64,000 bases of DNA from assembly GCF_029873635.1 (NCBI RefSeq), contig NC_080427.1, positions 75,361,348 through 75,425,347 on the forward strand, given 5' to 3'. This DNA is from Malania oleifera. Lineage: Eukaryota; Streptophyta; Magnoliopsida; Santalales; Ximeniaceae. Of this stretch, positions 23,854 through 57,729 are shown in pieces (within the stretch, counting starts at the first letter, position 1; each line of letters starts with the position of its first letter). The notes below the pieces were generated by a model. It was not told the origin of the DNA and ran no database searches. It saw only the letters and a program-made list of their open reading frames with translations. The translations under genes and the position numbers were made by a program.

Positions 23854-24320
23854 TGATATACCCCAAACATATTAGCATCTAAACAAACCATCTGTCATAA
23901 AGGATCATTAAGGAGCAGTTGCAATCAGGGTCATTATCACTCAAGGATAGTTGTTATAAAGGGATCAACCTCATGCACGTCAGAGCTATTCACGTCCGCG
24001 CAACCGACAGCTGTCATTGGCTCCTTAAAGGTCAGAGCGATTCATGCTCGCGTCATAACTAACCAATAAATGGTCGTACACTCTCGGGTCAACTTCAGCC
24101 ACTATAAGTAGGGACTCGGACAAGAGGTCAAGGTAAGTCATTCTTAACCTACTCTTACTATTGCATTCAACCTCTTTGAAACATTCTCCTTACTTAGGCA
24201 TCAGAGTGATCCCCTAGAGTACACCCCGGGTCCTCCAAGTCTATTTTGTTTTCAGTCTTTTCAGGTTATCGAAAGTCGGAGAGCAGTCTTGTAGATCATC
24301 GCCATTTTTATCCCGCAATA
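23854..24320 (+). repeat. 5' LTR of the Tat element
   Basis: It begins TGATATACCCC and aligns end to end with 43023-43488. It contains a TATA-like ACTATAAGTAGGG near 24103. Its last bases are CAATA where the 3' LTR has CAGCA. Differences between the two LTRs number in the dozens and are mostly C-T and G-A changes. Confidence 0.92.
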
Positions 24321-24321
24321 G

Positions 24322-24340
24322 TTGGCGTCATCTGTGGGAA
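24322..24340 (+). other. Primer-binding site of the Tat element
   Basis: The sequence TTGGCGTCATCTGTGGGAA follows the 5' LTR by one base. It has the TTGGCGCCGTCTGTGGGAA form typical of this Gypsy group. Confidence 0.75.
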
Positions 24341-24390
24341 CTAGCTTTTGAGAGGTGCTCATCTTACTCTCGACGTCCGACACTTGAATA

Positions 24391-25940
24391 ATGACAACCA
24401 CCCACGGCTCAAGCTCCAGCCCTGCCGCTGGTAAAGAATCACCCCAATCCGTTCATTCCACGCCTAGAGATCACTTAGGGGTCACTAGGGAGGAATTTCT
24501 CGCCTTCTATAGCAGAATGGAAGCTTTCCAGAAGAAGATGGAGGATATATTCAACCTACTCTTACAGCATAAGAGTAGGGAAGAGCATGTTCCCCGCCAA
24601 CAGCAGGTTAGCCCCAGCTCACCTAAGAAAGTAGAGAAATCAAAGGAGAGTGAGGAAAAAACTAATCTCACTAAGAAGGTGGAAGACACGAACAGCATAG
24701 GAGTCAACGAGCAAAGATCGACCGAGTTAAAGGAAAGGATTAAAAAGATAGACCAAATTGAAAAGATGATGAAAGAGGGTCAAACCGACCCCTTCTACAG
24801 GGAAACCTCTCTAAGATCCTCGGAGCAGTCGTTCACCAAAGAAGTGATGGAGGTCCCGCTGCCTAACAAATTCAAAATGTCGACCTTTGAAAGGTACTAG
24901 GGTTTAACTAATCCGGTCGATCATCTAGACACCTTCAAGGTGTTGATGCAATTGCAGGGTTGACCTGATGACATCATGTGCCGAGCATTTGCAACCACCC
25001 TTAAAGGTAGTACTAGAGATTGGTACCAAACCCTACAACCTGGATCAATCGACTCCTTCTCTGAGATTAAGTAGTTGTTCACCGACCATTTCCTCAGTAG
25101 TCGGAGAATCGTCAAGACGTCGGCTCATCTAATGAGCATGGTTCAGGGAGAACGGGAGACACTACAAAAGTTCATGCACTATTTCCTCACCGCGACCCTA
25201 GAGATCTGCAACCTGGACATGGGGGGTGGCTTTGGCAGCTCTGACCACGACCCTTCAGTTGAGAAATTTCCTGTACTCATTAGGGAAGAAGCTGCCAGCT
25301 AACATGGGAGAATTGATGGCTAGAGCGCAGAAGTATGTCGACCTAGAAGAGATGATAGATACAAAAGGAAATTGGATCGAGTTGAAAAGTAAGGGTAATA
25401 GAGAGATGGGCGAACCTTCTAGACCTATGAAGAGGTAGGAAAACAACACGCTGCATGCCAGCTCCAAGGCGAGAGGGTACACTAGTAAGTTTCAAACTTA
25501 TGCTCTCTTAAACACACCATGAACCGATGTGTTGATGCACATAAGAAAGAAGGAGTATGTGTCGTGGCCCAAACCTATGCGAACACCCTTATATAAACGG
25601 AACATGTCAAAGTTTTGTCAGTTCCATAGTGATCACAAGCACGATACCGAGGAATGTATTCAATTGAAGAATGAAATCGAGATCTTGATAAAAAAAGGTC
25701 TCCTGTCGAGGTTTGTAAAGAAAGGGGACCGTCAAGGAGAAGCTCGTGAGTAGAAAAGGCCAAATAAGGAGGCGAAAGAGAAACAGTTTGTTGGGGAGAT
25801 CGCAGTGATCTTTGGCGGATTCGCTAGTGGTGGGGACAGCGGAGGCGCCCGAAAAAGGTATGCTAAGTAGGTGCTCTCAATGAAGAAAAGGGATTCAAGC
25901 GGCAAAAGGAAAAAACATGAGGATGCTATCACCTTTGATA
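24391..25940 (+). pseudogene. Decayed gag of the Tat element
   Basis: The ATG at 24391 opens a 169-codon frame (MTTTHGSSSSPAAGKESPQS) that is rich in Ser, Lys and Glu with a likely coiled coil (residues 45-130). A stop at 24898 interrupts the Retrotrans_gag domain, which continues with NPVDHLDTFKVLMQLQG and ATTLKGSTRDWYQTLQPGS. After a frameshift near 25225 the domain end ELMARAQKYVDLEEM appears (25310-25350). A CxxxH-type remnant (FCQFHSDHKHDTEEC, near 25613) corresponds to the zinc knuckle. It is inactive. Confidence 0.85.
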
Positions 25941-28224
25941 GTGAAAAAGAAGGAGGAGTATAGCAACATCATGACGACGCTTTGGTAGTCTCCTTTCTAG
26001 TGGCTAACTACAAAGTGAGGCGTGTACTGATAGACAACGGGAGCTTGACCAATATAATATTATAGTCGGTGCTCGAAGGAATGAATATTGGTAGGAAATG
26101 CCTTAAATCAATCTCCACCCCCTTGGTTGGATTCGTAGGAGATGTAGTCCACCCTACGAGAACAATTACACTCCTAGTGACAATGGGAATGACACCATAG
26201 CAAATCACCTCGTTGACGGATTTCCTGGTGGTTGATCGGCCATTAGTATACAACATCATACTAGGCCACCCTTCACTCAATGCGGCCTGAGCCATAACAT
26301 CCACGTATCATCTAAAGATGAAATTCCCTACCCTGCACACAATAAGGATGATCAAATAAGATTAAGCAGCGGCTAGAAATTGCTACATAGTGGTGTTAAA
26401 AGGCAAGGTCGAAGTGAGGGAAACCTTGACCGTAGAAGATCTAGAGGTGAGGGGAGACTAGCCAAAAAATAGCACGTTGGATGATGACCTTACACGTGTA
26501 CCCATAAATGGTAATCAAGATAAGTGTGTGTAGATGAGGAGTCGATTGTCTAACTCTTTGAGAGCATAACTGAGTAAGCTATTGAACGAGTTCGCAGACG
26601 TGTTTACTCGGTCATCCAAAGACATGCCAGGGATTTACCCTGTAATCATGGAACACAGGTTACAAGTAGACCCCAATTATAAGCCTGTAAAGTAGACAAA
26701 GAGGAGCTTCCCGTTTGAGCGGATCAAGGTGATAGATGAAGAAGTGACGAAACCGGTGCAGGACAAATTCATTAGAGAGGTCAACTATCCAGAATGGCTA
26801 AACAATGTGGTTCTAGTAAAGAAATCGAATAAAAAGTGGCGGGTGTATGGATTTCACGGACTTGAACAAGGCATGTCCAAAAGATAGCTTTCCTCTTCCT
26901 CGAATCGATTAGTTTATGGACTCGACATCCAAACATGAGCTTTTGAGCTTTATGGATGCGTATTCAGGATATAATCAAATCTCAATGCGCCAAAAATACA
27001 ACGAGAAAACATCCTTTATCACAGAAAGAGGACTCTCTTGCTACTGAGTAATGCCTTTTCGGGTTGAAGAACGTGGGGGCAACGTATCAGGGGCTGGCAA
27101 ACAAGATATTCAAATACCAGCTTAGAAAGACGATGGAGGCGTATGTAGATGATATGTTGGTGAAAAGCGTGAAAGTAGAGAAACACTGCAGGGATTTGAA
27201 GGAAACATTCGAATTGCTATGTAGGTATCAAATGAAATTAAATCCTTCAAAATGTGTGTTTGGTGTCTCTGCAGGGAAGTTTTTAGGCTTCATGGTGATG
27301 CACTGAAGGACAGAAGGCAACCCTAACAAGATAAGGGTGCTATTGAAGATGAAGGCCCTCGAACAAAGAAGGAGATCTAAGTCTTGACAGGAAGGATCGC
27401 CTCCCTCAGCAGGTTTGTCTCCTATTCAGGGGATAAAGGTTCACATTTTTTCAAGGCGTTGCGAAAGAAAGGAGGATTCGAATGGGGGGAGGAACAAAGT
27501 ATGGCCTTTGACCAACTAAAGCAATACCTTGCCCCCCCTCCACTGCTGACAAAATCGAAAACAGGAGAAGACCTCTACCTATACGTGGCCTCAACTCCAC
27601 ATGCGGTCAGCTTAGTATTGGATAGAGAAGAAGAAAGGCAACACAAACCCATCTACTACACCAGTAAGGTGGTGAATGGAGCTGAGGTGAACTACAGCAT
27701 TGCGGAAAAGGCCGCCTTCTCCATTATTTGTGCAGCTCAGAAGCTAAGACCATGCTTTTCGGCACACAAGTTAATCGTGTTGACAAACTTGCCGCTAAGA
27801 CATATCCTTCAATGGCTAGAGATCTCTAGGAGAATGATGAGGTGGTCAATTGAGTTAGGGGAGTTCATCATATGATATCAGCCAAAGCCTACCATCAAAG
27901 CTCAGGTATTGGCTGACTTCATGGCAGAGCAATCCTATGAAATAGGAGAGAACTCAAAGGTGTAGACATTACATGTAGACGAGTCATCTAATGCAGCCGG
28001 GGGAGGAGCAGGACTAATCCTCACAGCACCAAACGGTGCAGAGACATTATATGCACCGAAGTTAGAGTTCGCGACGACCGACAATGATGTCAAGTATGAA
28101 GCACTATTAGTAGGGCTACGCTTGGTACTAGGGGTAACACGAATTCATGTAGTAAGCGATTCCCAGCTAGCGGTGGAATAGGTGAAAGGAGAGTTTGAGG
28201 CTAAGGATCAGAAAATGAAAAAAT

Positions 28225-31200
28225 TATTGGCCTAACTAGGCTTTTCAATCTTGTTTTGATGATAACAAATGAAAGATATTTTAACATGTATTGTTGAGTG
28301 ACTTTATTTCAGGATTACATAAAACTACACTCATTTTTGTCATGGAAGCAAACTAGAAATCAAATAGGTTACATAAAACCACACTAATGTTTGTCATGCA
28401 AGCAAGCTAGAAATCAAAGTTAATCAAATGAAAGCTTCTCAGAGTATTAAAGCAATAAAAGACAAATGAAAAACTTAAAGGCTAAGTGGGACTCAAAGTC
28501 AAGATGAACCTCAAAAGACTTGAAGACTTAGTACTTAAAAAGTCATATTCAGTAAAGTCATTTGTAAGTACTTCAAATCAAATATAATGTAGAAATATGA
28601 AGCTCATTAGGGTGCAAAGACTTAGAGACCAATTTTTGAAAACTTTGGAAAATGATTTTGTAAAGTTATATTTGAGTCTTTTAAATTACAAAGGTTTACA
28701 AATCAAAATTGGAGGTTTTTAGAAAAAGAATGGACTGGTCAGCCGACTGACCAGAATACTCTAGAATGGTTCAACCGCCTAACACAAGCTATATGTTGAA
28801 AATCTGCCCAGCCAACTGACCATTATGAACTAGGATTAGTCAACCGACTGACAACTTGGTCTGCCCAACCGATTGACATTTTTGAACGTGGTTCAGTAAG
28901 CCAACTGACAATTTACTGAATTTATTTTCTGGCAAAAAGAAGGGTCTCAGCTGCCTGTCCAGCTGAATGACCCTGTGAAATACACTACCTAGTCGCCTGT
29001 CTAGCCGATTGATTCAACGGAAATCAAATTTTTAAACTTCAAGGGGAAAATTTTAAAAACTCGTTTTTCAAATATTAACGTTATAAAAACTTGGTGGACA
29101 CTCCAAGTAACTCGGGGAACAAGGAAACTAATCCTAAAAAGCCTATAAATACTCCCTTAATCCCAAGAAATTAATCACCAAGCAATCACACAACATTCTT
29201 GCATTCAAGCTCTCAATCTCTGTCAAAGTTCTCTATCGCTCATACTCCATCTAGGAGATATCTTTTGAAATTACTGCTGAATCATCAACCTACAGTTGTA
29301 ACACTAAGTTTTCTCAATCACTAAAAGAACCCTTGGTGATCTTTATACCTGAGCTTCATACTTTCTATATTATTATTTGATTAAAGTATATTATGTGCTC
29401 TAACTTGTACATATCTGCTCTATTTTGAGAGTTTCATTGTACTCAGATTCTTGTAGCCTTCTCATTGTATTTTAACGGTTCAAAGATGATTTGGATCGTT
29501 GTACTAAGCGTGGGTTGATCGCTTGGAGAGGTTTCTCTTCCTAAAAAAGAGGGATTATTGTAAAAGACTTGCTCCACTGGGAAAGGAGAGTACATAGTGG
29601 AATCCTTTGGTGGAATTGACCAAAGGCGAGGACGTACGCTGGGGATAATCCGAACCTCGTAAAACTTGGTGTTCTTCTCAACCCTACTCTTTTTAACTTC
29701 TGCACTATATATATATTCTTGTGTATACTAAGTGCAGGTTGCAGTGCTTAAACACTGAATTCAAAGAAGACTCTTAATCTATAGAAAGTACGTTTCAATT
29801 AACCGTTTGCGGAAACCCACAAGGGAGTACGTTGGTTAATTTGCGGAAATATTAATTAAGAGAAACACAATAAAATTCAATCCAAAGCAGGGCTTGCATA
29901 CAAATTAAAGGGCTAATTACAAAAGGTGGAAGCAATTCAAAGAGTTGCAATGGTTGATTGGATTGTTTAAATTGTTGTATGTTTTGGTTTTGATTGATTG
30001 TTAGATTTGGTGTATTCCCAAGAGGGGGAGGTGAATTGGGTGTTTAAAAATTTCTCTATTAGGTTCAACTAGTTCAGCAACAGTATATTCACAACCTAGG
30101 GTCAGTCTACTCAAACGCACCGATAAGTATAATATGTGGAATTTAAATCATGCGCATCATTCACACAATAACATACACGTGCGGTAAATATCAAGTGTAG
30201 AAATATAAATAGACACACAATATGTTATCGAGGTTCTGCCAACTGTGCCTAAGTCCCCGCCTCTAACTCGCAAGCCCGAGGATTCCACTAATGCTCACTT
30301 AACGGGTGGAGCGGCACCTAATACAACCAAATCAATTAGCACAGGGCTGACCTCAACCTTTACAAATTCTCCTTGCGGGGTGGAGAAGACCCTAGGTCAA
30401 ATTTACAGGGCTGACCCCAACCTAATCCTTCCGGGCTAGATCAAACCCCCTCAGGCCACACCTAGAAATACAACAGTATTTTTCACAATTAATTGGTACA
30501 GCGATTATGCTTTCATGTAGAGCAGATATGTACTCAATATACGCAATCACATACACATCAACAATGTAGGTAAATGTAAGCTCAGTGATGTGTATTTTTG
30601 TGCAAGCCACACTCAACACGATATAATCGCTAATTTGCTCAAGAGTGATCTAAACAAACAATACCTTGGAATTTAAGCAAAGCACAAATCAATAGCAAAT
30701 CAGTATTCCAAAGATATCGATTAGATATTCAAACTAGTTCAAGAAGATTTTCTTCAATGAAATAGACACACTAATAGTTTGAAAATATTTTGCTTTTTGA
30801 AAATATCTTTGCACAACCAAAAACAAAGCTATTGGACACTTGTAATAACAATGCAAATATCCTAAGCTTACTAGGTTATCCTAACACAAGATTTCTAGTA
30901 TGAAAATTTGTGGGATAAACCTAAACTAAACTCCCCAAAAATAATATCTCAATCACACAAGCAAGTGTGAGTTTTTAGCAATACCTAGTATACACTAGCA
31001 CAACCAATATACTATCACAAAACTAAAATGTATCAAGGGAATACAAATTTGAGAGTATTTGGACAAAAAGAGTATTTGAGATAGCGAGGATTTGAGCTAA
31101 TTAGTTTTGACTAATCTTTCACTAATGCTCACAAATGAACTCATATTTATAGACAAGGTCAAAAATATAATCGTTTGGGACCTATTGGGTATTATTAGAA

Positions 31201-32224
31201 AAGTTTTAAAACACTTAGGAAATATTAACCCCATTTAATAAATTTAACCTCAGTTAAAATATTTTTAACCCGACGAGGTTCAAGTGGCTGAGCTATGGTT
31301 CGGTCTCCTGAATAGACACAGGAATAAAAGATTTTAAAATCAGTTCGGTCGCCCGTGTTGAAGTGCGGTGGCCCAAATAAAAGTCAGTAGCCTCTGTTCG
31401 TAAGTTTGGGTGCCCAATCATAGGGTCGGTCGCCCGAACTCATGTGTTCGATAGCCCGGGGCTCTTTTTGAACTATATCTCTCGATAGCTCAAGTTGGTG
31501 GAATGTCCCTTTCGAAGGGTTTGGGCGCCTGTGGATAGTACGCACAAAATAGTTCGGTTGCCCGAAAGCCTAAGTCAAATGTTGACTTCTCAATAGTTAG
31601 GGCACCCGAGGAGTTTTGAACTCCTGGGGTTCGGTCGCGCGAGCTCTCTCAAATTTCTTATAAATATTCGATTTAAGTTCATTTTTAACACTCCTATATT
31701 TTGTATGATATGTGTGTGAGTCTTGGGACCTAGAGTCATACTATGGTCTTACTGAGGCCATTTTGAGATAGTCCCAAAAAAATCGGCGTCGGTCGATCGG
31801 GTGCCCTAAGGTCATTCGGTCCCTATGGTCATTCTACGTTCATTTTGAGCTTACAAAACCTACATGCATGACATGTAGAGATTATTAGAGATCGTTTATC
31901 CTAATTACTATTACAGACCCTCATTGAATCAAAATGAATTACAACATGAAAAAAGTCTTCAGGGTCTTTAGACTTTGAGTCTTCATGTGCCATTAGTTGA
32001 TATGGTAATTATATAACTGCACACAAACTCGAAAGTTATCAAATACCAAGAGTATTTGTCATTATCAAAACTGGGTGTGACCTATAGGGTCAACATTGAT
32101 AATTGATTGATTTACTTAAGTTTTGTTGTGAGTACTAAACAAGTAAGTAAAAGAATTTAAAAAGAACTTAAAATTTTTAAATAACCCAATTCACCCCCCT
32201 CTTGGGATCGCTATTCTACTTTCA
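28225..32224 (+). mobile_element. Solo LTR of a Copia-like family, inserted in the Tat RNase H
   Basis: It is flanked by AAAAT at 28220-28224 and 32225-32229. It starts TATTGGCC (TG decayed to TA) and ends TTTCA, and the host RNase H frame continues when it is removed. The 5' zone holds TTTTGATGATAACAAATG and the 3' zone CCAATTCACCCCCCTCTTGG. A GGCGAGGACGTACGCTGGGG block (29618-29640) is typical of plant Copia LTRs of the SIRE/Maximus type. Without the nested copy it is about 1.9 kb. It contains a cluster of GTCAGCCGACTGACC-like words at 28738-29015. There is no coding region. Confidence 0.85.
29999..32095 (-). mobile_element. Nested inverted solo LTR, same Copia-like family
   Basis: It is flanked by TTGAT at 29994-29998 and 32096-32100. 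It starts TGTTAGATTTGG and ends GGTCAACA. On the minus strand it begins TGTTGACCCTATAGG, followed by TTTTGATAATGACAAAT, and ends near CCTCTTGGGAA, so it is the same family as its host LTR in reverse. It carries a cluster of GGTCGCCCGAAC-like words at 31265-31650 and 31785. Confidence 0.9.
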
Positions 32225-33799
32225 AAAATACTTAGCCAAAGACCAAGAACACATCAGAGCATTCGGCCAGTTCGAGATAGAGCGTATGCCACGAACAAGG
32301 AACGCAAAGGCGGATGTGCTAGCCAAACTAGCCTCAACTACAAAGCCAGACTGGAAAGGTGCAGTATACTTGGAGAGGGTCGGAAAACCTTCTTACGAGG
32401 AGGCCAGAGTCGACCTAATGGTGGTTGAAGGTAACAAAGAGGATTGGAGGACCCCTTTGATGCAGTACCTTGGTGATGAATCCTTACTCGAAGACAAGAA
32501 ACATACTTTAAAGGTAAGAAGGAGGGCGGTCAAGCACATGCTCATAGAAAAAGAGTTGTATAGGAGATCCCTAACACTACCATACCAATGGTGTCTAAGT
32601 ACCGGAGAGGGAGAATATGTGCTAAGGGAAATCCACAAAGGAGCATGTGGAAATCACCTCACTAGTAGAGCCTTAGCCCACGAGACCCTACGGTAAGGAT
32701 TCTACAGGCCCACAATGAGGAAAGATATAATCGAGATAGTCAAACGGTGCGACAGGTGCCAGCGATGCGCTGGAACACCACACATGTCATCCAACCTTCT
32801 CTCCCCCCTGACCAGTGCTTGTTCCTTCACTCAATAGGGACTGGATATCTTGGGACCACTGCCTCAAGCGATTGGGCAAAGGAAGTTTTTGTTGGTGGCG
32901 ATCGATTACTTCACCAAGTGGGTAGAGTTTGAAGCCCTAGCTCGCATAACCGAGCAAAGCATCACCTGATTCGTGTGGGTGTCGATGGTTTGCCAGTTCA
33001 GAATCCCGTGGGCCATAGTCACGGACCACGAGAGATCGTTCAACAATAAGCACTTCAAGAAATTTTATGCCAACCTATCTATAAAACTTCTATTCGCATC
33101 GGTTGCGCATCTCTAGAGCAATGGTCAGGTGGAGAACATGAACCGTATGATACTACACAATTTAAGAACACAACTGGAATCTTCACAGGGCAAATGGGTG
33201 GAAGAGCTCTCATCCATAATCTGGGCTTACCACACAACCCGACGAGTAGCAACAGGTGAAACCTTATTCATGCTCACTTTCGAAACATAAATAGTCATTT
33301 CTGCCGAGGTCGGGATCCCCTCCTATTGAAGGCAACATTTTGACGAAAAGAATAATGGTGAAGAACTGAGGGTGTAATTAGACCTCCTTGAGGAGAGACA
33401 AGAGCAAGCATATATGAGGATCGTCGCATACCAACAAAAAGTGGCCAGGTACTACAACACTCGTGTTAGAGTACGGACATTCCACCTAGGAGAGCTAGTC
33501 CTCAGGAAGATGCAAGCAAACCCAGTAGAGCGTGGAGCGAACAAACTGAAGCTGAACTGGGAGGGACCATACTGAGTTGCAACAGAAATAAAGTTGGGAA
33601 CATACACGTTGGAGGACATAGAGGGAAGGGAGATAAAAACCACATGAAACTCTAACATGTTGAAAAAATACTACTCTTGAAATTTCATTCCCCAAAATGT
33701 TTGTACTATAGAATTGAAATCCTAACATTCATAAGGTTGTACCACAAAGAAATTCAAAAGTACATCATCAATGTTTAATAAAACCACAAGATGAACTAT

Positions 33800-35461
33800 T
33801 CAATCATCAGTTAGGTTTACTTCCTTCCGCAACCTTCTCCTCCTCAAGCTCATCCTCCTCATCCATTTCCTCCCCTGACTTTGGACTTTCATCGTTGTAC
33901 CCATGCAAGCACACACCAGCCAGAGAAAGGTCAAGGTGCATCGTCTTAACCTACTCTTGGCACCTTTGAAAGCCTTTGCGGTAAGTCTTGGCAGTATTGA
34001 GGATAAACTTCTTCGAGTTGTGATACTCCAAGATAGCAGTAGGGATTTCCTCATGACGAATCCTTGATATCTCCTCTTGATGAGCCATTTCGTAGCTTTC
34101 AGCCTCAACTCGGGCTTCATGCAACTCATTCTGGGTAGCCATATATTTCTCCCTTGCGTCCAGCATCTGCCGATACATCTCAGTAACCTTCTTCTCCTGA
34201 GCCAAAGCCATGGTCGCCATCTATAAGCAAGAACAATAGGAGTTAAGAGCACAGAAAACCAGGCCATGGGCAAGACTAACAAAGGTACCTAGTAGGTAGC
34301 CTGTCGCATTGCCGTAGATAAACAATCAAGAAGATTCATCCTTGCCTCCACAAGGTCCTCCACACGTACTGCACGGAGTAGGGTAGGTCCAGTAAGCGTC
34401 GGCTCATCATAATTGGGGTCGGATGGGGGAGTCAACACAGTCGGCTCCACAGGGGGTAAGTGCTCCCTCTTCATTATGGGGGCTTCTTCAATATGAGAAA
34501 AGCCACCTTCAAAGTCTCTCTTCTTCTTCTTCTTACTCGACCTCTGTTTCTTCGCGTTGTCCATCACCGCTTTGTACTAATTAAAGTCAATATCTACAAA
34601 AAGAAAAGAGGACGAAGTAAGGAAAAGTTAAGTTGAACAAGTTACGCATATAATATGCACTAAGCTAAAAAAAAGTGGAGACCAGAGAAGATGTGACTCA
34701 GCCCCCACTGCACAAGGACTCACTCCTTGAGCAGCTACTCGTGGGGGATAAGCCCTTGTTTTGCACTGGCCTATAGCTCTAGAAGGATAGCCTCTTCTAA
34801 CCGGGACAAGGTGGGAGCCAAGTGTCGTAGTCGGGATGAAACAAAGGGTATGGTTACACAATAATGTATGTATATAACTTAGGCATCAGCAGAATAAATA
34901 AAACATAAAGGGAATAACATCACCATCCAGAGGAGTGGACCACACATGGGGCCCATGATAATCTAGCTCCCTAAATGCAAAAAAGAATCGAAACTTCCAA
35001 TCATGAATGGAAGAGCTACCAGGGGTAAATAGCTTGTACTCAGGAAGGGCATTGAAATAATATAGATCCTTCTTTACAATATGCTTTCTCAATTGATAGC
35101 AGCTTCGAAATAGAGGCACGGTGGGCTGGTTGCCTCGTTTGTGGAGGAGGACGGCGAAACACGTCAACGTCAAATAAGAGTTGAGGGTTAATTGCGAAAG
35201 GGCAACGTTGTAGAAACAAGCCACGTTGAAAAAGAAAGGTAAGAAAGGAAGCCTAAGACCTAGGTCAAGGTAATCACTATGCAGACATATCTCATTAGGA
35301 CTAGGTTGCTGAGCTGACTCGACGTTGGTGGGCAGTCTGATATTGATAGTGTTAAGGATAACAAATAAACGACATATGGTCTGCAGCTCGGATAAGGTGA
35401 GGTCAGACCGAGCATTCCTAATGGTTAAGAGAGATCTAGAACTAACCTTAGAAGAGCTCAT
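33800..35461 (-). pseudogene. Spliced antisense ORF of the Tat element
   Basis: Exon 1 starts at ATG 35461 and runs to about 34924 (donor G|GTGATG). It encodes a hydrophobic, structured stretch (LGLRLPFLPFFFNVACFYNV; LFTPGSSSIHDWKFRFFFAF) of the 'putative plant transposon protein' type. A second exon (about 34567-34289) encodes MDNAKKQRSSKKKKKRDF and ends in TAG just before GTACC; in the third (34220 down to about 33950) MALAQEKKVTEMYRQMLDAR is an acidic coiled coil. The TAG sits where CAG|GT would be the usual exon end, so it may be a C-to-T decay. Antisense ORFs of this kind are known from Tat-lineage elements such as Grande and Ogre relatives. Function is unknown. Confidence 0.7.
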
Positions 35462-38400
35462 GGAGTCAAAACTTCAAGTTTCAAAAGGACAAACAACTTA
35501 CATTATACAAAGATTTGGATCAATGGCGCATATGTCCAATAGTTAACCTAAGAACACATCCAAGGAAAGTGAAGAACGCGAAGAACATTAAAACAAGATA
35601 TGAAGAACATGAAGAACATAAGAAGAACGTAGCAGAAAAAATCAACACACGAAGCCAAGAAAAAGAAGGAAAAGACGCAAAGAAAAGGGTGGAGCGAGAG
35701 CGTACCTAGCAGCAAGGGAACCTTTTTCCGCTAAGACGAGGAGCAAATGGGCCACCAAGCGCTTTTTATAGAGAAAAGTTGGCTCGAATCTCCGTAAGAG
35801 CATGAATCTAGAGGAGTCAGGATCATTGATTATCCCACGTCTCGAGGAAAGGGCTGGAGGTCCTCGTACGGACCCGGAGTTCGAATAAGATTTCATTCAA
35901 TACACGTGTGCTGACAAAGGCTCCTTACACACACGCCTCCCAATCAGATGGGATGATTAAGGGACGTGTAATCCTGAGGAAAATTGGAATACACCAAAGG
36001 TACTACTCACTTAACAAAAAATTTTGAAACCTGCAGGTGAAAGCGAGCTGACTGGGTGCTAGTGGGCAGTCTGATATTGATAGTGTTAAGGATAACAAAT
36101 GAATGACATATGGTCTGCAGCTCTGATAAGGCGAGGTCAGACCGAGCATTCCTAATGGTTAAGAAAGATCTAGAACTAACCTTAGAAGGGCTCATGGAGT
36201 TAAAACTTCAAGTTTCAAAAGGACAAATAACTTACATTATACAAAGATTTGGATCAAAAGGCGTATATGCCAAACAGTTCAACTAAGAACACATCCAAAA
36301 AAAATGAAGAACGCGAAGAACATTCAAACAAGATATGAAGAACACGAAGAACATAGCAGAAAAAATCAACACACAAAGCAAGAAAAAGAAGGAAAAGACG
36401 CAAAGAAAAGGGTGGAGCAAGAGCGTACCTAGCAGCAAGGGAACCTTTTTCCGCTAAGACGAGGAGCAAATAGGCCACCAAGCGCTTTTTATAGAGAAAA
36501 GTTGGCCCAAATCTCCGTAAGAGCACGAATCTAGAGGAGTCAGGATCATTGATTATCCCACGTCTCGAGGAAAGGGCTAGAGGTCCCCGTACGGACCCGG
36601 AGTTCGAAGAAGATTTCATTCAATACACGTGTGCTGACAAAGGCTCCTTACACGCATGGCTCCCAATCAAATGGGATGCCTAAGGGATGTGTAATCCTGA
36701 GAAAAATTGTGATACACTAAAGGTACGACTCACTTAACAAAAAATCTTGAAACCTACAGGTGAAAGCGAGTTGACTGGGCGCTAGTGAGCAGTCTGATAT
36801 TGATAGTGTTAAGGATAACAAATGAACGACATATGGTATGCAGCTCTGATAAGGTGAGGTCAGACCGAGCATTCCTAATGGTTAAGAGAGATCTAGAACT
36901 AACCTTAGAAGAGCTCATGGAGTCAAAACTTCAAGTTTCAAAAGGACAAACAACTTACATTATACAAAGATTTGGATCAATGGCGCATATGCCCAACAAT
37001 TCAACTAAGAACACATCCAAAGAAAGTGGAGAACGTGAAGAACATTCAAACAAGATATGAAGAACATAAGAAGAACATGGCATAAAAAATCAACACACAA
37101 AGCCAAGAAAAAGAAGGAAAAGACGCAAAGAAAAGGGTGGAGCAAGAGTGTACCTAGCAGCAAGGGAACCTTTTTTCGCTAAGACGAGGAGCAAATGGGC
37201 CACCAAGCGCTTTTTATAGAGAAAAGTTGGTCCGAATCTCCGTAAGAGCACGAATCTAGAGGATTTAGGTTCATTGATTATCCCACGTCTTAAAAAAAGG
37301 GTTGGAGGTCCTCGTACGGACCCGAAGTTTGAAGAAGATTTCATTCAATACAAGTGTGCTGACAAAGGCTCCTTACACGCACGCCTCCCAATCAGATGGG
37401 ATGCCAAAGGGACGTGTAATCCTGAGGAAAATTGCGATACACCAAAGGTAGAACTCACTTAACAAAAAATCTTGAAACCTGTAGATGAAAGCGAGCTGAC
37501 TCGGCGCTAGTGGGCAGTCTGATATTGATAGTCTTAAGGATAACAAATGAACGACATATGGTCTGCAGCTTTGATAAGGTGAGGTCAGACCAAGTGTTCC
37601 TAATGGTTAAGAGAGATCTAGAACTAACCTTAGAAGAGCTCATGGAGTCAAAACTTCAAGTTTCAAAAGGACAAACAACTTACATTATACAAAGATTTGG
37701 ATCAAAGGCGCATATGCCCAACAGTTCAACTAAGAACACATCCAAGGAAAGTAAAGAATGCGAAGAACATTCAAACAAGATATGAAGAACATGAAGAACA
37801 TACCAGAAAAAATCAACACACAAAGCCAAGAAAAAGAAGGAAAAGACGCAAAGAAAAGGGTGGAGCGAGAGCGTACCTCGCAGCAAGGGAACCTTTTTCC
37901 GCTAAGACGAGGAGCAAATGGGCCACCAAGTGCTTTTTATAGAGAAAAGTTGGCCCGAATCTCCGTAAGAGCACGAATTTAGAGGAATCAGGATCATTGA
38001 TTATCCCACATCTCGAGGAAAGGGCTGGAGGTCCCCGTATGGACCCGGAGTTTGAAGAAGATTTCATTCAATACACGTGTGCGGACAAAGGCCCCTTACA
38101 CGCACGCCTCCCAATCAGATGGGATGCCTAAGGGACGTGTAATCCTGAGGAAAATTGCAATACACCAAAGGTACGACTCACTTAACAAAAAATCTTGAAA
38201 CTTGCAGGTGAAAGCGTGCTGACTAGGCACTAGTGGGCAGTCTGATATTGATAGTGTTAAAGATAACAAATGAATGACATATGGTCTGCAGCTTTAATAA
38301 GGCGAGGTCAGACCGAGCATTCCTAATGGTTAAGAGAGATCTAGAACTAACCTTAGAAGAGCTCATGGAGTCAAAACTTCAAGTTTCAAAAGGACAAACA

Positions 38401-41121
38401 ACTTACATTATACAAAGATTTCGATCAAAAGGCGCATATGCCCAACAGTTCAATTAAGAACACATCCAAGGAAAGTGAAGAACGCAAAGAACATTCAAAC
38501 AAGATATGAAGAACACGAAGAACATAGCAGAAAAAATCAACACACAAAGCTAAGAAAAAGAAGGAAAAGACGCAAAGAAAAGGGTGGAGCGAGAGTGTAC
38601 CTAGCAGCAAGGGAACCTTTTTCCGCTAAGACGAGGAGCAAATGGGCCACCAAGCGCTTTTTATAGAGAAAAGATGGCCTGAATCTCCATAAGAGCACGA
38701 ATCTAGAGGAGTCAGGATCATTGATTATCCCACGTCTCGAGGAAAGGGTTGGACGTCCCCGTACGGACCCGGAGTTCGAAGAAGATTTCATTCAATACAT
38801 GTGTGCTGACAGAGGCTCCTTACACGCACGCCTCCCAATCAGATGGGATGCCTAAGGGACGTGTAATCCTAAGGAAAATTGCGATACACCAAAGGTACGA
38901 CTCACTTAACAAAAAATCTTGAAACCTGCAGGTCAAAGCGAGCTGACTAGGTGCTAGTGGGCAGTCTGATATTGATAGTGTTAAGGATAACAAATGAACG
39001 ACATATGGTATGCAGCTCTGATAAGGTGAGGTCAGACCGAGCATTCCTAATGGTTAAGAGAGATCTAGAACTAACCTTAGAAGAGCTCATGGAGTCAAAA
39101 CTTCAAGATTCAAAAGGACAAACAACTTACATTATACAAAGATTTGGATCAATGGCGCATATGCCCAACAATTCAACTAAGAACACATCCAAAGAAAGTG
39201 AAGAATGCGAAGAACATTCAAACAAGATATGAAGAACATGAAGAACATAAGAAGAACATGGCAGAAAAAATCAACACACAAAGCCAAGAAAAAGAAGGAA
39301 AAGACGCAAAGAAAAGGGTGGAGCGAGAGCGTACCTAGCAGCAAGGGAACCTTTTTTCGCTAAGACGAGGAGCAAATGGGCCACCAAGTGCTTTTTATAG
39401 AGAAAAGTTGGCCCCAATCTCCATAAAAGCATGAATCTAGAGGAGTCAGGATCATTGATTATCCCACGTCTCGAGGAAAGGGTTGGAGGTCCCCGTATGG
39501 ACCCGAATTTTGAAGAAGATTTCATTCAATACAAGTGTGCTGACAAAGGCTCCTTACAAGCATACCTCCCAATCAGATGGGATGCCAAAGGGACGTGTAA
39601 TCCTAAGGAAAATTGCGATACACCAAAGGTAGAACTCACTTAACAAAAAATCTTGAAACCTGCAGGTGAAAGCGAGCTGACTCGGCGCTAGTGGGCAGTC
39701 TGATATTGATAGTGTTAAGGATAACAAATGAACAACATATGGTCTGTAACTTTGATAAGGTGAGGTTAGACCAAGTGTTCCTAATGGTTAAGAGAGATCT
39801 AGAACTAACCTTAGAAGAAATCATGGAGTCAAAACTTCAAGTTTCAAAAGGACAAACAACTTACATTATACAAAGATTTGGATCAATGGCGCATATGCCC
39901 AACAGTTCAACTAAGAACACATCCAAGGAAAGTGAAGAATGGGAAGAACATTCAAACAAGATATGAAGAACATGAAAAACATAAGAAGAACATACCAGAA
40001 AAAATCAACACACAAAGCCAAGAAAAAGAAGGAAAATACGCAAAGAAAAGGGTGGAGCAAGAGCGCACCTAACAGCAAGGGAACCTTTTTCCGCTAAGAC
40101 GGGGAGCAAATGGGCCACCAAGTGCTTTTTATAGAGAAAAGTTGGCCCAAATCTCTGTAAGAGCACGAATCTAGAGGAGTCAGGATCATTGATTATCCCA
40201 CGTCTCGAGGAAAGGGCTGGAGGTCCCCGTACAGACCCGAAGTTCGAAGAAGATTTCATTCAATACACGTGTGCTGACAAAGGCTCCTTACACGCACGCC
40301 TCCCAATCAGATGGGATGCCAAAGGGAAGTGTAATCCTGAGGAAAATTGCGATACACCAAAGGTACAACTCACTTAACAAAAAATCTTGAAACTTGCTGG
40401 TGAAAGTGAGCTGACTCGGCGCTAGTGGGCATTCTGATATTGATAGTGTTAAGGATAACAATTGAACAACATGTGGTCTGCAGTTCTGATAAGGTGAGGT
40501 CAGACCGAGTGTTCCTAATGGTTAAGAGAGATCTAGAACTAACCTTAGAAGATCTCATGGGGTCAAAACTTCAAGTTTCAAAAGGACAAACAACGTACAT
40601 TATACAAAGATTTGGATCAAAGGCGCATATGCCCAACAGTTCAACTAAGAACACATCCAAGGAAAGTGAAAAATGCGAAGAACATTCAAACAAAATATGA
40701 AGAACATAACCGAAAAAATCTGCACATAAAGTCAAGAAAAAGAATGAAAAGACGCAAAGAAAAGGGTGGAGCGAGAGCGTACCTAGCAGCAAGGGAACCT
40801 TTTTTTGTTAGGACGAAGAGCAAATGGGCCACCAAGGGCTTTTTATAAAGAAAAGTGGCCCGAATCTCCGTAAGAGCACAAATCTAGAGGAGTCAGGATC
40901 ATTGATTATCCCACATCTCGAGGAAAGGGCTGGGGTCCCCGTACGGACTTGGAGTTCGAAGAAGATTTCATTCAATACACGTGTGCTGACAAAGGCTCCT
41001 TACATGCACGCCTCCCAATCAGATGGGATGCCTAAGGGACGTGTAATGCTAAGGAAAATTGCGATACACCAAAGGTACAACTCACTTAACAAAAAATCTT
41101 GAAACCTGTAGGTGAAAGCGA
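35316..41121. repeat. Tandem array, eight ~725-bp units, in the Tat 3' region
   Basis: The anchor CAGTCTGATATTGATAG occurs at 35333, 36067, 36790, 37515, 38238, 38962 and 39696, and with one change at 40430, giving periods of 734, 723, 725, 723, 724, 734 and 734. The 10-bp differences come from extra GAAGAACATAAGAAGAACAT-type words. Each unit contains the first ~62 codons of the antisense ORF (MSSSKVSSRSLLTIRN-like), a TATA-type box and, in several units, a CACGTG. The first unit is continuous with the antisense ORF, so the array grew from its start region. Confidence 0.95.
35762..35771 (-). promoter_or_regulatory. TATA box repeated in every array unit
   Basis: On the minus strand the sequence reads CTCTATAAAAAGCGCTTGG, about 300 bp 5' of the antisense-ORF ATG at 35461. 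The same box appears in the other units near 36487, 37211, 37934, 38658, 39392, 40125 and (as TTTATAAAAAG) 40841. A CACGTG lies about 130 bp further upstream in units where it is intact (for example 35903, 38075, 40266, 40978). Core-promoter function is inferred. Confidence 0.55.
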
Positions 41122-41126
41122 AATTA

Positions 41127-41580
41127 TGGAGACTCTTGAAATCGGACAATCTGATGAGCAAAGCTCATAAGGCCCAAAGAAGATGCCCAAAAAAGTGCAC
41201 TGCTCATTAGGCAAAGAAGATTGGCCCAACTGATGAGCTAAGGCTCAGGAGGCCACAAAGTATGCCCAAAAAATTAATACGACTCATTAGATAAAGAAGA
41301 TCGAACCAACTGATGAGCTCAGGCTCATGAGGCCACAAAATATGCTTGAAAAATGAGTACGACTCGTTAGGCAAAGACGATCGGCCCAACTGATGAGCTT
41401 AGGCTCATGAGGCCACAAAGTATGCCCAAAAAATGAGTATGACTCATTAAGCAAAGAAGATCGGACAAACTGACGAGCTCAGGCTCGCGAGGCCAATAAA
41501 TATGCCCAAAGAATGAGTACGACTCATTAGGCAAAGAAGATCGACCCAAATTGATGAGTAACGCTCATGAGGCTCAAAAA
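41127..41580. repeat. ~80-bp minisatellite
   Basis: About five to six copies of a unit built on GACTCATTAGGCAAAGAAGA, CAACTGATGAGCTCAGGCTC and ATGAGGCCACAAAGTATGCC. Copies differ by scattered substitutions. Confidence 0.9.
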
Positions 41581-42610
41581 AGTTCCTCAAGAAGCTGCTG
41601 GACAAAAGTTGGTCCAAACAAAGTTCCCCCAGGAAGCTGCTCGACAAAAGCTGGTCAGAACAAGGTTCCCCTAGAAGTTGCTCGGCAAAAGCTGGTCGGA
41701 ACAAAGTTCCCCAAGAAGCTGCTTGGCAAAATCTGGTCAGAACAAAGTTCAACAAGAAGCTGGTCGGAACAAAGTTCCGCTAGGAAGTTGCTTGGCAAAA
41801 TCTAGTTGGAACAAAGTTCACCAAGAAGCTAGTTGGCAAAAGCTGGCCAGAACAAAGTTCCCCAAGAAGCTGCTCGGCAAAAGATACTTGGAAAAAAGTT
41901 CACTAAGAAGCTGGTCGGCAAAAGCTAGTTAGAATAAAGTTCCTTAAGAAGCTGCTCGGCAAAAGTTGGTCAGAACAAAGTTCCCACAAGAAGCTACTCG
42001 GCAAAAGCTGGTCAAAACAAAGTTCGCCAAGAAGATGTTCGGCAAAAGCTGGTTGGCAAAAGTTCCCTCAGAATCTGCTTGAGAAAGCTATTTAGAACAA
42101 AGTTCCCCCAGGAGATGTTCACCAAAAGCTGGTAAGAACAAAGTTCCCCTGAGAAGCCGCTCATCACAAACCTACGAGGAGAGCTGGTCGGAAAGATCTG
42201 CTTGGCAAAATTCGCAAGAAGAGCTGGTTGGAAAGATTTGCTCGGCACAAACCCTCGAATTGAGCTGGTCGGAAGAACCTGCTCAGAACAAACCCATGGG
42301 GAGAGCTGGTCGAAAAGATTTGCTCGGCACAAACCACAAGGAGAGGTGGTCTGAAAGATTTGGTCGGCACAAACCCACAAGGAGAGTTGGTTAGAAAGAT
42401 CTGCTCGACACAAACCCACGAGGAGAGCTGGTCGGAAGGATTGACTTGGCACAAATCGTCAAGAAGAGCTGTTCGAAAGGATTTGCTTGGCATAATCCTG
42501 CGAGTAGAAATGGTCGAAAGGATCTACTTAGCCCAATCCTTCAAGTAAAGCCGGTTGGAAGAATCTGCTCAGCCCAGTTCCTTAAGTAAAGTTGGTTGAA
42601 AGGGCTTGCT
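41581..42610. repeat. ~42-bp minisatellites, two related families
   Basis: From 41581 to about 42160 the unit is AAGCTGCTCGGCAAAAGCTG plus GTCGGAACAAAGTTCCCC. From about 42160 to 42610 it becomes GAGAGCTGGTCGGAAAGATC plus TGCTCGGCACAAACCCACG. The shared GCTGGTCGGAA and CTCGGCA words show that one derives from the other. All six frames give periodic peptides, so the ORFs here are by-products of the repeat. Confidence 0.9.
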
Positions 42611-42895
42611 CGGTCCACTTTGTCCAAAAGCACCGTTTGGGACAAATCCCTGTAAAACCCACTTGGCGAATTGGCTTGGAAAAGCCATACGATCTCCCTT
42701 ATCGGCTCGGATCAACCAATCCTCATCGAAACCAGCTCAACAAAGCTGTTGGAGCCCCATCATCGGCTTGGATGAACCTACCTTACACAGATCAGCTTGA
42801 AATAGCCATGCGGTCCCTCTCATCAGCTCGGATCAGCCGACCTTGGTTGTAACTGGCTTGGCAAAGCCATTCAAGACCCTTCGTCAGTTCCGATT
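42611..42895. repeat. ~60-bp degenerate tandem repeat
   Basis: Words such as GGCTTGGAAAAGCCATACGA, ATCGGCTCGGATCAACC and AAAGCCATGCGGTCCC recur with a period of roughly 60 bp. This is the last repeat block before the polypurine tract. Confidence 0.7.
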
Positions 42896-43007
42896 AGTAG
42901 AGGTTCTTTAAATTTGGTTTTAAAAAATTAAGAAAAATACACACATATGGAGGGGGAGCTAGGGCAACTTTCAAACTTCCAGGAACTAGTTCCAAAAATT
43001 CAAAACT

Positions 43008-43019
43008 AGGGGGGGGGAC
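43008..43019 (+). other. Polypurine tract of the Tat element
   Basis: AGGGGGGGGGA ends three bases before the 3' LTR start at 43023. Confidence 0.8.
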
Positions 43020-43022
43020 AAC

Positions 43023-43488
43023 TGATTTACCCTAAACATATCAGCCTCTAAACAATCCATCTGCCATAATGGAGCATTAAGGAGCAGCCGCAATTAGGGC
43101 GATTATCACTCAAGGATAGCTGTTCTGAAGGGGTTAACCCCATGCATGCCAGAGCATTCCACGCCAGTGCCACTGACAGCTGTCATTGGCTCCTTAAAGG
43201 CCAGAGCGATTCATGCTCATGCCATAACCGACCAATAAATGGCTATACACCCTCAGGTCAGCTTCAGCCCTATAAGTAGGGACTCGGACAAGAGGCCAAG
43301 GTAAGTTATATTTAACCTACTCTTATTGTTGCATTCAACCTCTTTGAAGCATTCCCCTTACTTAGGCATTAGAGTGATCCCCCAGAGTACACCCTGGGTC
43401 CTCCAAGCCTGTTTTGTTTTCAGCCTTTTCAGGTCATCAGAAGTCAGAGAGCAATCTTGTAGGTCATCGCCATTTTTATTCCGCAGCA
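43023..43488 (+). repeat. 3' LTR of the Tat element
   Basis: It begins TGATTTACCC, ends CCGCAGCA, contains CCTATAAGTAGGG near 43270, and is followed by the duplication ATATT. Confidence 0.92.
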
Positions 43489-43493
43489 ATATT

Positions 43494-44115
43494 AATAAAT
43501 ATTTTCAAGAAAAACATCGAATACATATCCAAAAATCCCTACAAAATACAAAATTTTAAAATATTATTTCAATGTGTTTTCTATAATTTCATATTTGGTT
43601 TCCTAGATATATTGAATACACATGATATTGCCCCTTTTCCTTTTTGTGACACTCTGTGAACAAACACAGGTCTTCCTCTCTCACAATTATTTTCATTGTC
43701 CCTTTCCTTCCTTGCAACTATTGCTCTATTTCTCTATTCTCATCCGCTCACTTGACATCTACCCAACTACAGACAATGAAGATGGTACTAATGATTAAGG
43801 TCTGTAGGTTAAGGGCTATTGTTAACGAGGAAGATAACAAAAGACAGTTTTGTAGGCAAAGTGATTTTATTCCTTAACCACAAAATTAGTGAGTTCTTCA
43901 TTTTCTCCTTCGAATTTCCCTATTTTTTTTTGTTTTTTTCAATTTGTAGGAGTAATACAATCGATTTGAGTCCTAGATTTGTGCTTATCGCATGGTTGAA
44001 ATGGATCTAAGGGTCAAAGATAAAATGGGAACAATCTTCTTGTATATATGTGCATGTGTGTTCATGTTGTGGATGCCTTGAAAGGATATTTGTATCCATT
44101 TATGATATGTATATG
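43494..44115. other. Unassigned spacer, possible displaced upstream region of QTRT2
   Basis: This sequence adjoined the QTRT2 5' flank before the Tat insertion. It has a T- and C-rich tract (43625-43760) and no recognisable coding or repeat sequence. Confidence 0.45.
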
Positions 44116-46138
44116 TGTAATGACTCGAAGAATAATGGTATTTAAATAATAAGAGAAAGGGAAATGGGAACAGCAACAAAAGGAAGTGGCAGCCTTCGTT
44201 GTCGATGAATGTGGGCTTCGTCGACGAGAAGATACTGAGGGGGGGTTTGGGGCAACTATGAATTTCATCGACAAAGGGGAAAGTTCGTCGACGAATTGTA
44301 TCTTGACCTCGTTGATGAGGTGACGTGGCTTGTCGAAGAAGCCCTTAGTATAAATAGCCCAAACTCCAGATTTTACGCAGAAAAATCGGCAGATATCTCT
44401 CTCTCTCTCTCTCTCCTCCCTACGGTTTCTCTCTCCTCTCTCTTTGATTTCTACTCTGTTGTTTGTCAGATCGACAATCTGAGGCCACCACGACGCTCTT
44501 GGGGAAGTTCTCTCCAAATCTACTGGAGCAGATCATTGGTGGGGCAGAGTTGAAATTCATCCTTGGTTTCGGGTAAGGTTTTTTTTAGCAAAATTTGGTC
44601 TTATCGTAGTTATATGAAATGTTATTCACGTAAAAATACCAAAATTTAGTTCTGAGAATTGTTGGATTCAGGGTGTTGAACAAGGAACCCTACGAGTGCA
44701 GGATGAGCGTGTTTTTAGGGGGTTTATTTTCAGTATCAGGTAAGGGAATAAACTAAAATAGTTATTTTCCATGCAATTATTATTATTTATTAGCAAATTA
44801 ATTTTTAGGAAAGCATGTATTATATTTTAATATTGTTGAGAAAATGCATATTTGGGAAAATACTGTTGTTGTACAGGAAATATGATTTTGGAATAAAATA
44901 TGTGATTTTACTCAGCATTGTGTGTGGCATGGATATTATTTTACTTGAAAAGTATTATGTTATGGAAATTTTACAAATAAAGCATTTTTTTACAGATTAT
45001 GAGATAATGCAGTACATTATGATTTCAAATACATGATAAATGAATTATTTATTCAAAACAATATTTATGAAATGTTTGGTGTAAGGCTGTGATAGATAGC
45101 CAACGCTAGGCCGTGTATGATATATTATTTTGGCGTAAGGTCGTATGTATGATTTTGGTGCAAGGCCATATATATGCAAGTAAATGACACAAGGTCGTAT
45201 GTTTAACGTTATTACAGAATATGCTATCAATCTATTTACGTTAAACTGTGTATTATCATGTATTATATATTATCAGAACCTGGATGATAGTTTAGTTCAA
45301 TTACAGGAGCACGGTACCGTTGCTATACAAATCAGATATTTACGTTCAGACTTGTGCTAACCACCCCACAAGGGGGTGGGAGATGGATAGTCGATGTGAC
45401 TTTCAGTGTAGAGTTGTAGACGTCCACGTGACCGTCTAGACCAGGGTGTGGCAGGCCCATCATACTTACAGACATTTTTGACTCAGCAGTGGTCGGCCAA
45501 CCATTGTCAGGTCCCTCCTTCAGGCTGCACAACCCACCGTGGGGGGTAATACATGACATCAGCTAGCTATACATCCTGGGTGAATTTTCAGTATTATCAG
45601 TTATATCAGACATTTTATGAACTGTATAATTTATTAGAAAATTCGAAAATATATGATTATTCAGTATGCTATGATGAATGTTTCAGGTACATGAAATGTA
45701 CTGTATATGTATAATTACATCAAATATTCATGTTGCCACACAGTTGTATTTTGTTTATTTCTCCTACAGAGAAGTGTCTCACCCCCGAACTTAAATAATT
45801 TTTAGGAGACCTAGAAAAACCGGCGGATCGAGGCTGCCGTTGAGATAGTGTGGTACTACCTTGCTAAGAGGGTAAGTTTGAACTAGGATCAGGAGATTTT
45901 GTTATGGGATCCTAGAGATATTTTTTTTTGTATTTTTTGGAGATTGTATATAAACACAGTATTTTGGGATTTAGTTGACTTTGGTATTATGTATTTTATG
46001 GTTTGAGAATGTGATTTATATTTACTACTGCTTAGGTTTCCACTGTGAATGTCAGTTGTGTCCCTGTTACCCATGGGATCAGGTTGACTTCGTTATTGAT
46101 TATGTTTTGATATATGAAAGGATAAGTAGGTCATTACA
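44116..46138 (+). mobile_element. Solo LTR, chromovirus-type Gypsy, perfect TSD
   Basis: It starts TGTAATGACTCG and ends GGTCATTACA, flanked by ATATG at 44111-44115 and 46139-46143. U3 carries clustered TTCGTCGACGAA-like words (44200-44340, one perfect 12-bp palindrome at 44284-44295). TATAAATAG follows at 44350 and then a CT repeat (44397-44416). A minisatellite of GCAAGGCCGTAT type lies at 45080-45210. There is no internal element sequence, so recombination between LTRs has removed the body. Confidence 0.93.
45080..45210. repeat. ~29-bp minisatellite inside the solo LTR
   Basis: About five diverged copies of a unit around GGCGTAAGGTCGTATGTATG. The same array, with different copy number and sequence, is at 60135-60300 in the related LTR. 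Confidence 0.8.
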
Positions 46139-53338: not shown

Positions 53339-53341
53339 GTT

Positions 53342-53353
53342 TGGTATCAAAGG
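53342..53353 (+). other. Primer-binding site, decayed tRNA-Met type
   Basis: TGGTATCAAAGG follows the LTR after three bases and differs by little from TGGTATCAGAGC. Confidence 0.8.
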
Positions 53354-53665
53354 CTAGGTTGCTAGGTTGTGTAGACCCTAGAGTGCAGTGGAAACAACAC
53401 CAGAATATAGGAAAAGGATTTGAGGTTTTTGTTCTGTGGTCTGAGTTAAGGATTTTCGTGGTGGTTTCTGTATCTTTCTTGGGGTGACGATTTTGGAAAA
53501 GCCATAGTAAACTATTGACGAGTCGTGTGTCTATGTTACAGGATTGGATTTTAAGTTAGTACCAGGGAGGGTAGTTAATAGTGAATATGAGATTTCAGTC
53601 AGAAGAAATAAATTAGATCTATGTGGGAGATAGGATCCTTATACTATGCTCTTCATCTTTTCAAG

Positions 53666-54720: not shown

Positions 54721-54729
54721 ATAGGTACC

Positions 54730-57390: not shown

Positions 57391-57729
57391 TCGTCCCTCC
57401 TCCCTTCTCTCTAAGATTTCAGCCGGATTCTCGTCGGTTCGACAATTTGAAACCACCATGACACTCTTAGGAAAGTTCTCTACAAATCTACTAGAGTGGA
57501 TGGTTGGTGGGGCTACCTTGAAATTCATTCCAAATTCAAGGTAAGGTTTTTTATTCAAAATTTGGCTTTTCTATAGTTATAGGAAATGTTGTACACGGAG
57601 AAATACTAAAGTTTTATTCTGAAAGATGTTGCTTTTAGGGTGTTGAATGAGAAACCCTGCGGGTACAGGATCAGTATATTTTAGGAGGCTTTCCAGAAGC
57701 AAGGTAAGGGAATAAACTAAAGCATAAAT

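Follow-up and report, generated by a model that had tools for sequence, protein, structure and literature searches.

In Retand elements, a Transposase_28 (TRP28) open reading frame (ORF) in antisense orientation between pol and the 3' long terminal repeat (LTR) is characteristic, and tandem repeats occur in the same region (PMC11963269; Steinbauerova et al. 2011, cited therein). Such antisense ORFs were reported in 97% of recently active Retand clusters, and TRP28 elements from flowering plants only (PMC11963269). Here, we analyzed a stretch of 64,000 nucleotides from Malania oleifera (contig NC_080427.1, positions 75,361,348 to 75,425,347; the window). It contains a Ty3/gypsy LTR retrotransposon (23854-43488, plus strand) which carries eight head-to-tail copies of the start region of its antisense TRP28 gene. 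We call the element Retand-like; this label rests on TRP28, and of its reverse transcriptase there is only a partial RVT_1 piece. The LTR length is within the 315-1,194 bp reported for Retand elements. According to the same article, however, their tandem units measure 8-100 bp, compared with about 725 bp here, and the unit here holds a promoter-like region and start codons and was found in tandem in this copy only.

The antisense accessory gene gene23 of maize Grande likewise lies between pol and the 3' LTR and is transcribed from its own promoter (Gomez-Orte et al. 2013, via PMC7264820). No multiplied promoter is described in that account, and its promoter and expression were shown experimentally, whereas for our locus both would be predictions from sequence. 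Ogre elements are another Tat-lineage source of tandem repeats, with repeats of the 3' region that expand to satellites (PMC7004042). The Lathyrus satellites described there have monomers of 32-660 bp; the unit here is slightly larger. In Ogre, short arrays occur in many dispersed elements and some expand, whereas here each of the 32 relatives fetched has one unit, and the scored matches included no satellite.

In maize, CRM1TR and CRM4TR are locus-specific tandem repeats formed from parts of gypsy elements, for which illegitimate recombination at short stretches of homology, followed by growth through gene conversion, has been proposed (PMC3648361). As described there, they are the nearest precedent found for the birth of our array, although their units consist of LTR and untranslated region (UTR) of centromeric elements and ours of an internal antisense-gene start region. 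The maize b1 hepta-repeat (PMC3798267) and pl1 penta-repeat (PMC11166354) also comprise few tandem copies at one locus, with units of 0.85 kb and 2.1 kb. The b1 copies carry regulatory sequence, and the pl1 copies are mostly transposon DNA. In these reports, both are linked to small RNAs and to the silencing of a gene close by or at a distance, whereas for our locus such a role would be putative; furthermore, the pl1 units are identical and the units here diverged. By analogy, b1 might be the nearest precedent for a possible function. Mouse L1 5' UTR monomers are tandem promoter units within a retrotransposon as well and the nearest precedent found in this respect, but they are described as a working feature of young subfamilies and act mainly in sense orientation (PMC9022269), whereas the array here is private and antisense. 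Among the titles and abstract openings listed in a literature search, none describes a plant LTR retrotransposon whose antisense start region is multiplied; absence from print is not claimed.

Structure of the antisense gene and the array

The antisense ORF (34886-35461, minus strand) comprises 191 codons and a stop and lies between pol and the 3' LTR, as in the Tat/Retand group. It matches TRP28 (PF04195) with an expectation (E) value of 4.9e-13 (49.5 bits; cut-off 26.2). TRP28 is common in this genome, as the best 150 of 954 candidates are all above the cut-off. When the ORF was compared with viral_contigs, 20 pattern matches but no relative were obtained. In 18 relatives (L014 and L025 were dropped for short coverage, and L029-L040 left out), the diversity at codon positions 1, 2, and 3 was 0.169, 0.125, and 0.199 (permutation p 0.0002). 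To judge from this pattern, constraint at the protein level has acted on the family's antisense ORF. Given such constraint, a promoter must have existed somewhere upstream.

The array extends from 35313 to 41121 and consists of eight head-to-tail units (U1-U8), which meet at seven junctions (36047, 36770, 37495, 38218, 38942, 39676, and 40410). The units resemble each other far more than expected by chance, with pairwise Kimura two-parameter (K2P) distances of 0.047-0.095. Tandem Repeats Finder considers periods of up to 500 and therefore missed the array. The original prediction had been made from the window sequence and placed eight tandem units with a common minus-strand start region at 35316 to 41121. 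The array was confirmed with exactly this end, but the predicted start is 3 bp late. The predicted unit length of 723-734 bp holds for the upper bound only, since the units measure 712-734 bp.

On the minus strand, each unit contains upstream DNA, a TATA box TATAAAAAG (8/8), a donor-like GT (8/8), an acceptor-like AG (7/8), and the ATG (8/8), in this order. As predicted, the TATA-type box lies about 300 bp upstream; the distance from TATAAAAAG to the ATG is 289-309 bp in all eight units. CACGTG, which had been said to be often present, was found in five of them. U1 (35313-36046; 734 bp) has its TATA box from 35770, its donor-like GT at 35705-35704, and its ATG at 35461. This ATG opens the 191-codon TRP28 frame, so the first unit is indeed continuous with the antisense ORF. 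One unit holds 49 codons from the ATG (in U1, 149 bases from the ATG to the unit end). A start region of about 62 codons had been proposed for all units. It is present in U2 (36047-36769; 723 bp; TATA box from 36493; ATG 36195), U4 (37495-38217; 723 bp; TATA box from 37941; ATG 37643), U7 (39676-40409; 734 bp; TATA box from 40133; ATG 39824), and U8 (40410-41121; 712 bp; TATA box from 40847; ATG 40558), where the codons beyond the unit's 49 read across the junction into the next unit. In contrast, the frame has 54 codons in U3 (36770-37494; 725 bp; TATA box from 37218; ATG 36918) and 47 codons in both U5 (38218-38941; 724 bp; TATA box from 38665; ATG 38366) and U6 (38942-39675; 734 bp; TATA box from 39399; ATG 39090). 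U5 is the unit that lost the acceptor-like AG.

Occurrence of the unit in the genome

We searched the genome of the same species (1.494 Gb, 510 contigs). In addition to the eight copies in the array, an 801-bp query gave 41 rows at 39 other places, with 75-84% identity over the main pieces (best 40 of 147 candidates). None of the 41 rows extends beyond query positions 46-770, which are the unit borders; 31 start at 46-47 and 33 end at 766-770. Out of the 39 places, 32 loci were fetched, 20 as long loci and 12 with some 250 bp to either side of the unit. Each of the 32 holds one unit. At the 20 long loci, this unit is flanked as in the window, by an 80-bp minisatellite on one side (20 loci) and the TRP28 body on the other (18 loci).

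Over its full length, a 201-bp probe spanning one junction matched seven places, which are the seven junctions of the array (best 40 of 68 candidates). Two of its other matches are the array edges, and 31 stop (probe 96-103) or start (probe 99) at the junction. With the protein of the first 48 codons as a probe (E up to 1), 150 matches were obtained (best of 629), 142 of them elsewhere and down to 36% identity. Among these best 150 of 629 candidates, only the eight start exons here have neighbors within less than 20 kb; the next smallest gap is 46 kb. Hence, the check for further arrays or for satellites of the roughly 725-bp unit, stand-alone or dispersed, found none among the best 40 of 68 junction-probe candidates and the best 150 of 629 start exons. 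A view of the array as a feature of the element finds no support, as the tandem form turned up in this copy only. A b1-type repeat has few tandem copies of a unit unique to its locus; here, the unit is in tandem at one locus as far as searched, but it also exists as single copies at 39 other places.

Birth and growth of the array

The units form one clade (support 1.0, stem 0.065). Their mean K2P distance is 0.071 (bootstrap interval 0.060-0.083) and the maximum 0.095, compared with 0.156 (0.120-0.199) for the two LTRs. In 0.4% of 1000 bootstraps, the most distant units reached or exceeded the LTR distance. The contrast remains when CpG columns are removed (units 0.046 mean, 0.070 maximum; LTRs 0.121). 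LTRs and units diverge at similar rates in the relatives (ratio 1.09; 105 pairs of 15 relatives; L015, L017, L019, L021, and L028, 5 of the 20 long loci, were without an LTR match of sufficient length).

In the window, GA is found at both unit ends. Six relatives (L009-L012, L016, and L019, out of 32) were compared with it. Immediately left of the unit, five have GA and L019 has AA; the unit itself ends in GA in four and in AA in L012 and L019. With GA at both ends, the junction is explicable by a 2-base microhomology.

The tree further pairs U2 with U5, U3 with U6, and U4 with U7 (supports 0.864, 0.988, and 0.793). Of the 19 variants shared by exactly two units, nine lie at a lag of three units; as many or more do so in 0.95% of the 40,320 possible unit orders. 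The blocks U2-U4 and U5-U7 (together 36047-40409) are 95.1% identical, whereas six comparisons at other offsets gave 93.1-93.9% and the two other lag-3 comparisons 94.4-94.8%. These three lines of evidence point to a secondary, late duplication of a three-unit block as a probable step.

Methyl-cytosine deamination leaves an excess of change at all three cytosine contexts in methylated plant DNA. Singleton transitions per site in the array were 18/448 (0.040) at CG, 13/344 (0.038) at CHG, 36/1728 (0.021) at CHH, and 13/3160 (0.004) at A/T. The pattern recurs in the four nearest relatives (CG 28/232, CHG 23/208, CHH 39/844, A/T 27/1540), and at CG plus CHG, the array does not differ significantly from them (p 0.69). 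The excess at CG, CHG, and CHH suggests a methylated repeat, which has probably carried cytosine methylation since its formation. The substitution pattern does not identify the array as a cause of silencing.

We favor a local tandem duplication in one dead element, not a built-in silencing device, with a probability of about 0.75; it probably took place after insertion and was followed by unequal exchange. An ordinary Retand-like element would have inserted with a single antisense TRP28 gene and a single start region, consisting of upstream DNA, TATA box, 5' untranslated stretch, and the first 49 codons. A piece of roughly 725 bp would then have been duplicated head to tail at this one locus. 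Because the unit ends share only the two bases GA, the first duplication was presumably a microhomology or template-slip event. Unequal exchange between homologous copies would have expanded the array, including the one three-unit block duplication that the variants indicate. Units 2-8 most likely have no function, as far as their sequence tells. If any unit is transcribed, only U1 would read straight into the TRP28 ORF; the others would yield minus-strand RNA through the element and, if unspliced, ORFs no longer than 62 codons.

Several points weigh against this reading. Transversions alone leave the dates of array and insertion unseparated (units 0.018 mean, 0.027 maximum; LTRs 0.026). Of 496 informative site pairs, 255 are incompatible with one tree, which could reflect conversion between units or recurrent mutation, and recurrent C-to-T change could also explain it. 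Homogenization between units would make the array look younger than its true age, and for this reason, an origin after insertion is likely but not proven. The genome searches scored only the best candidates of each probe. The CHH excess of the array over its single-copy relatives is not significant (p 0.12), and a C-to-T bias also arises without methylation. Finally, the TRP28 frame is open over 191 codons here, while at least one stop or frameshift was found in 18 of the 18 relatives compared; this contrast (mean of 3.1 disruptions per relative; Poisson chance of an intact frame about 0.045) was noticed after the fact, with the reading frame supplied by the window copy.

The two-base microhomology fits template switching as well as it fits DNA repair. 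The duplication might accordingly have happened during reverse transcription and arrived with the insertion, with later exchange keeping the units alike. For the 3' repeats of the Tat lineage, an origin during element replication has been hypothesized (Macas et al. 2009, via PMC7004042), and the transversion counts are compatible with an equal age of array and insertion. However, the K2P distance of the most distant units stayed below that of the LTRs in 99.6% of the bootstraps, and the root-to-tip depths of the array are 0.034-0.064, compared with 0.078 per LTR (half the LTR distance). Hence, we regard this origin as unlikely.

Promoter-like signals

The units were originally seen as antisense promoter cassettes. 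What stands of this is that promoter-like and start regions of an antisense ORF are present in tandem and point towards pol and gag. The signals also occur in the family: TATAAA is present in 27 of the 32 relatives and all eight units, the ATG in 29 relatives, the donor-like GT in 31 relatives and all eight units, and the acceptor-like AG in 21 relatives and seven units. Between the GT and the AG, a 5' UTR intron might be located, which is our guess from the motifs. The six bases ending in the donor-like GT are conserved beyond composition in the family (p 0.008) but not in the array (p 0.68).

The preset sequence test speaks against a kept promoter function, as TATA and ATG proved to be conserved no better than composition predicts. 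Columns of A/T vary less than columns of G/C (0.094 vs. 0.264). TATA and ATG show no variation within the array, yet this does not set them apart from composition-matched positions (p 0.29 and 0.54), and in the 32 relatives, they are not special among composition-matched columns either (p 0.17 and 0.18). A special conservation of the TATA box was also considered, as in the family it ranks among the 4.5% of windows with the least variation, but this was lost after composition control (p 0.17; array 0.29). CACGTG (G-box) was rejected as a family motif; 1 of the 32 relatives has it at that place, and 4 have it at any position of the unit. It dates from the recent history of the array.

These results bear on the idea of a promoter battery, in which up to eight minus-strand starts would yield antisense or small RNA that silences the element or its family. 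TATA, GT, and ATG are kept in all eight units, and all four signals in seven of eight units compared with 15 of 32 relatives. The antisense gene of Grande has its own promoter, as reported in PMC7264820, and the seven 853-bp repeats of maize b1, unique in the genome, give small interfering RNAs according to PMC3798267. Kept signals are expected, however, since units 2-8 descend recently from a single ancestor, and TATA and ATG are not kept beyond composition-matched sites. In addition, three of the eight units lack CACGTG. On balance, we consider such a battery improbable; a b1-like source of small RNAs is possible but unsupported.

A more elaborate version, built on the analogy with b1, treats the array as a private regulatory repeat. 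Eight antisense promoters would send minus-strand RNA through pol and gag, small RNAs from it would act on the dispersed relatives, the array would be methylated in return, and the multiplied promoter region would keep the TRP28 frame open. The intact frame in the window is a weak hint at continued use. Of the 27 private changes in this ORF, 7, 7, and 13 lie at codon positions 1, 2, and 3, but this lean towards the third position is not significant (p 0.085), and continued selection on the window ORF was thus rejected as a candidate finding. Many of the other TRP28 matches scored in the genome also have open frames. Moreover, a relative at C4:99432841 (L034, outside the 18 compared) has an open frame of 255 amino acids over the start exon, and because of it, we lowered our estimate for this scenario, which we now find very hard to credit.

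Remaining explanations

The array could have been present in a mobile parent and later lost from the other copies, or it could be frequent in the part of the genome that was not scored, as the searches covered the best 40 of 147, 40 of 68, and 150 of 629 candidates. Against this, the nearest relatives (L009-L012) are single-unit with the same flanks on both sides, so that the loss must have been complete in each. We give this explanation almost no weight. Tandem arrays are error-prone in assemblies, but an artefact is scarcely conceivable here because the units differ by K2P distances of 0.047-0.095 and by unit-specific variants, unlike read errors or a collapsed repeat, and the outer flanks of the array match the single-copy relatives.

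Host element and surroundings

The host element is 19,635 bp long, with paired LTRs (5' LTR, 23854-24320, 467 bp; 3' LTR, 43023-43488, 466 bp) and an identical 5-bp target site duplication, ATATT, on either side. An ORF at the expected gag position (24388-24900, plus strand) contains no Pfam domain above the cut-off. The pol remnants (27052-28178, plus strand) comprise RVT_1, RT_RNaseH_2, and RT_RNaseH in separate open pieces, with RVT_3 just below the cut-off. A later insertion of about 4.0 kb (28225-32225) interrupts pol; the relative L012 is continuous across this site. With pol in pieces and split by this insertion, the host element is an old, dead copy. Parts of the insertion (29997-30364 and 31774-32096) recur in the same order at 57728-58079 and 59490-59813.

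From 33800, the end of the block aligned as pol and not a mapped stop, to 43022, the distance from pol to the 3' LTR is about 9.2 kb. This is outside the published 2.9-6.6 kb, a range that describes recently active elements and is not meant strictly (PMC11963269). Once the 5,075 bp of U2-U8 are subtracted, about 4.1 kb are left; thus, the excess is the array.

The interval between the array and the 3' LTR contains an 80-bp minisatellite (41151-41573) and minisatellites of about 41 bp (41579-42602). Both kinds were matched in all 20 long relative loci, and they resemble the usual 3' repeats of Tat-type elements. A string CTGATGAG had suggested a hammerhead in the 80-bp minisatellite; this candidate was dropped, as an Rfam search of 34000-43600 on both strands (E up to 1) returned no structured-RNA match.

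Elsewhere in the window, a direct repeat of about 1.4 kb (44766-46102 and 59819-61212; 78% identical) is probably another transposon family; related pieces lie at 1-261 and at 44396-44757/57365-57721. Other gypsy-type remnants are found at 51376-56916, with Integrase_H2C2 (51376-51819, minus strand), RVP_2 (54881-55189), and RT_RNaseH (56083-56661).

Significance

The array was apparently born once, in one dead element, and the part it is made of is usual for the lineage. It offers a datable birth of a tandem repeat in a single retrotransposon copy, as single-copy relatives, breakpoints, a block duplication, and an LTR clock come together at one locus. If the promoters were active, this private locus with several antisense promoters would serve as a natural experiment on whether a dead element can become a source of silencing through repeat number alone, as at b1.

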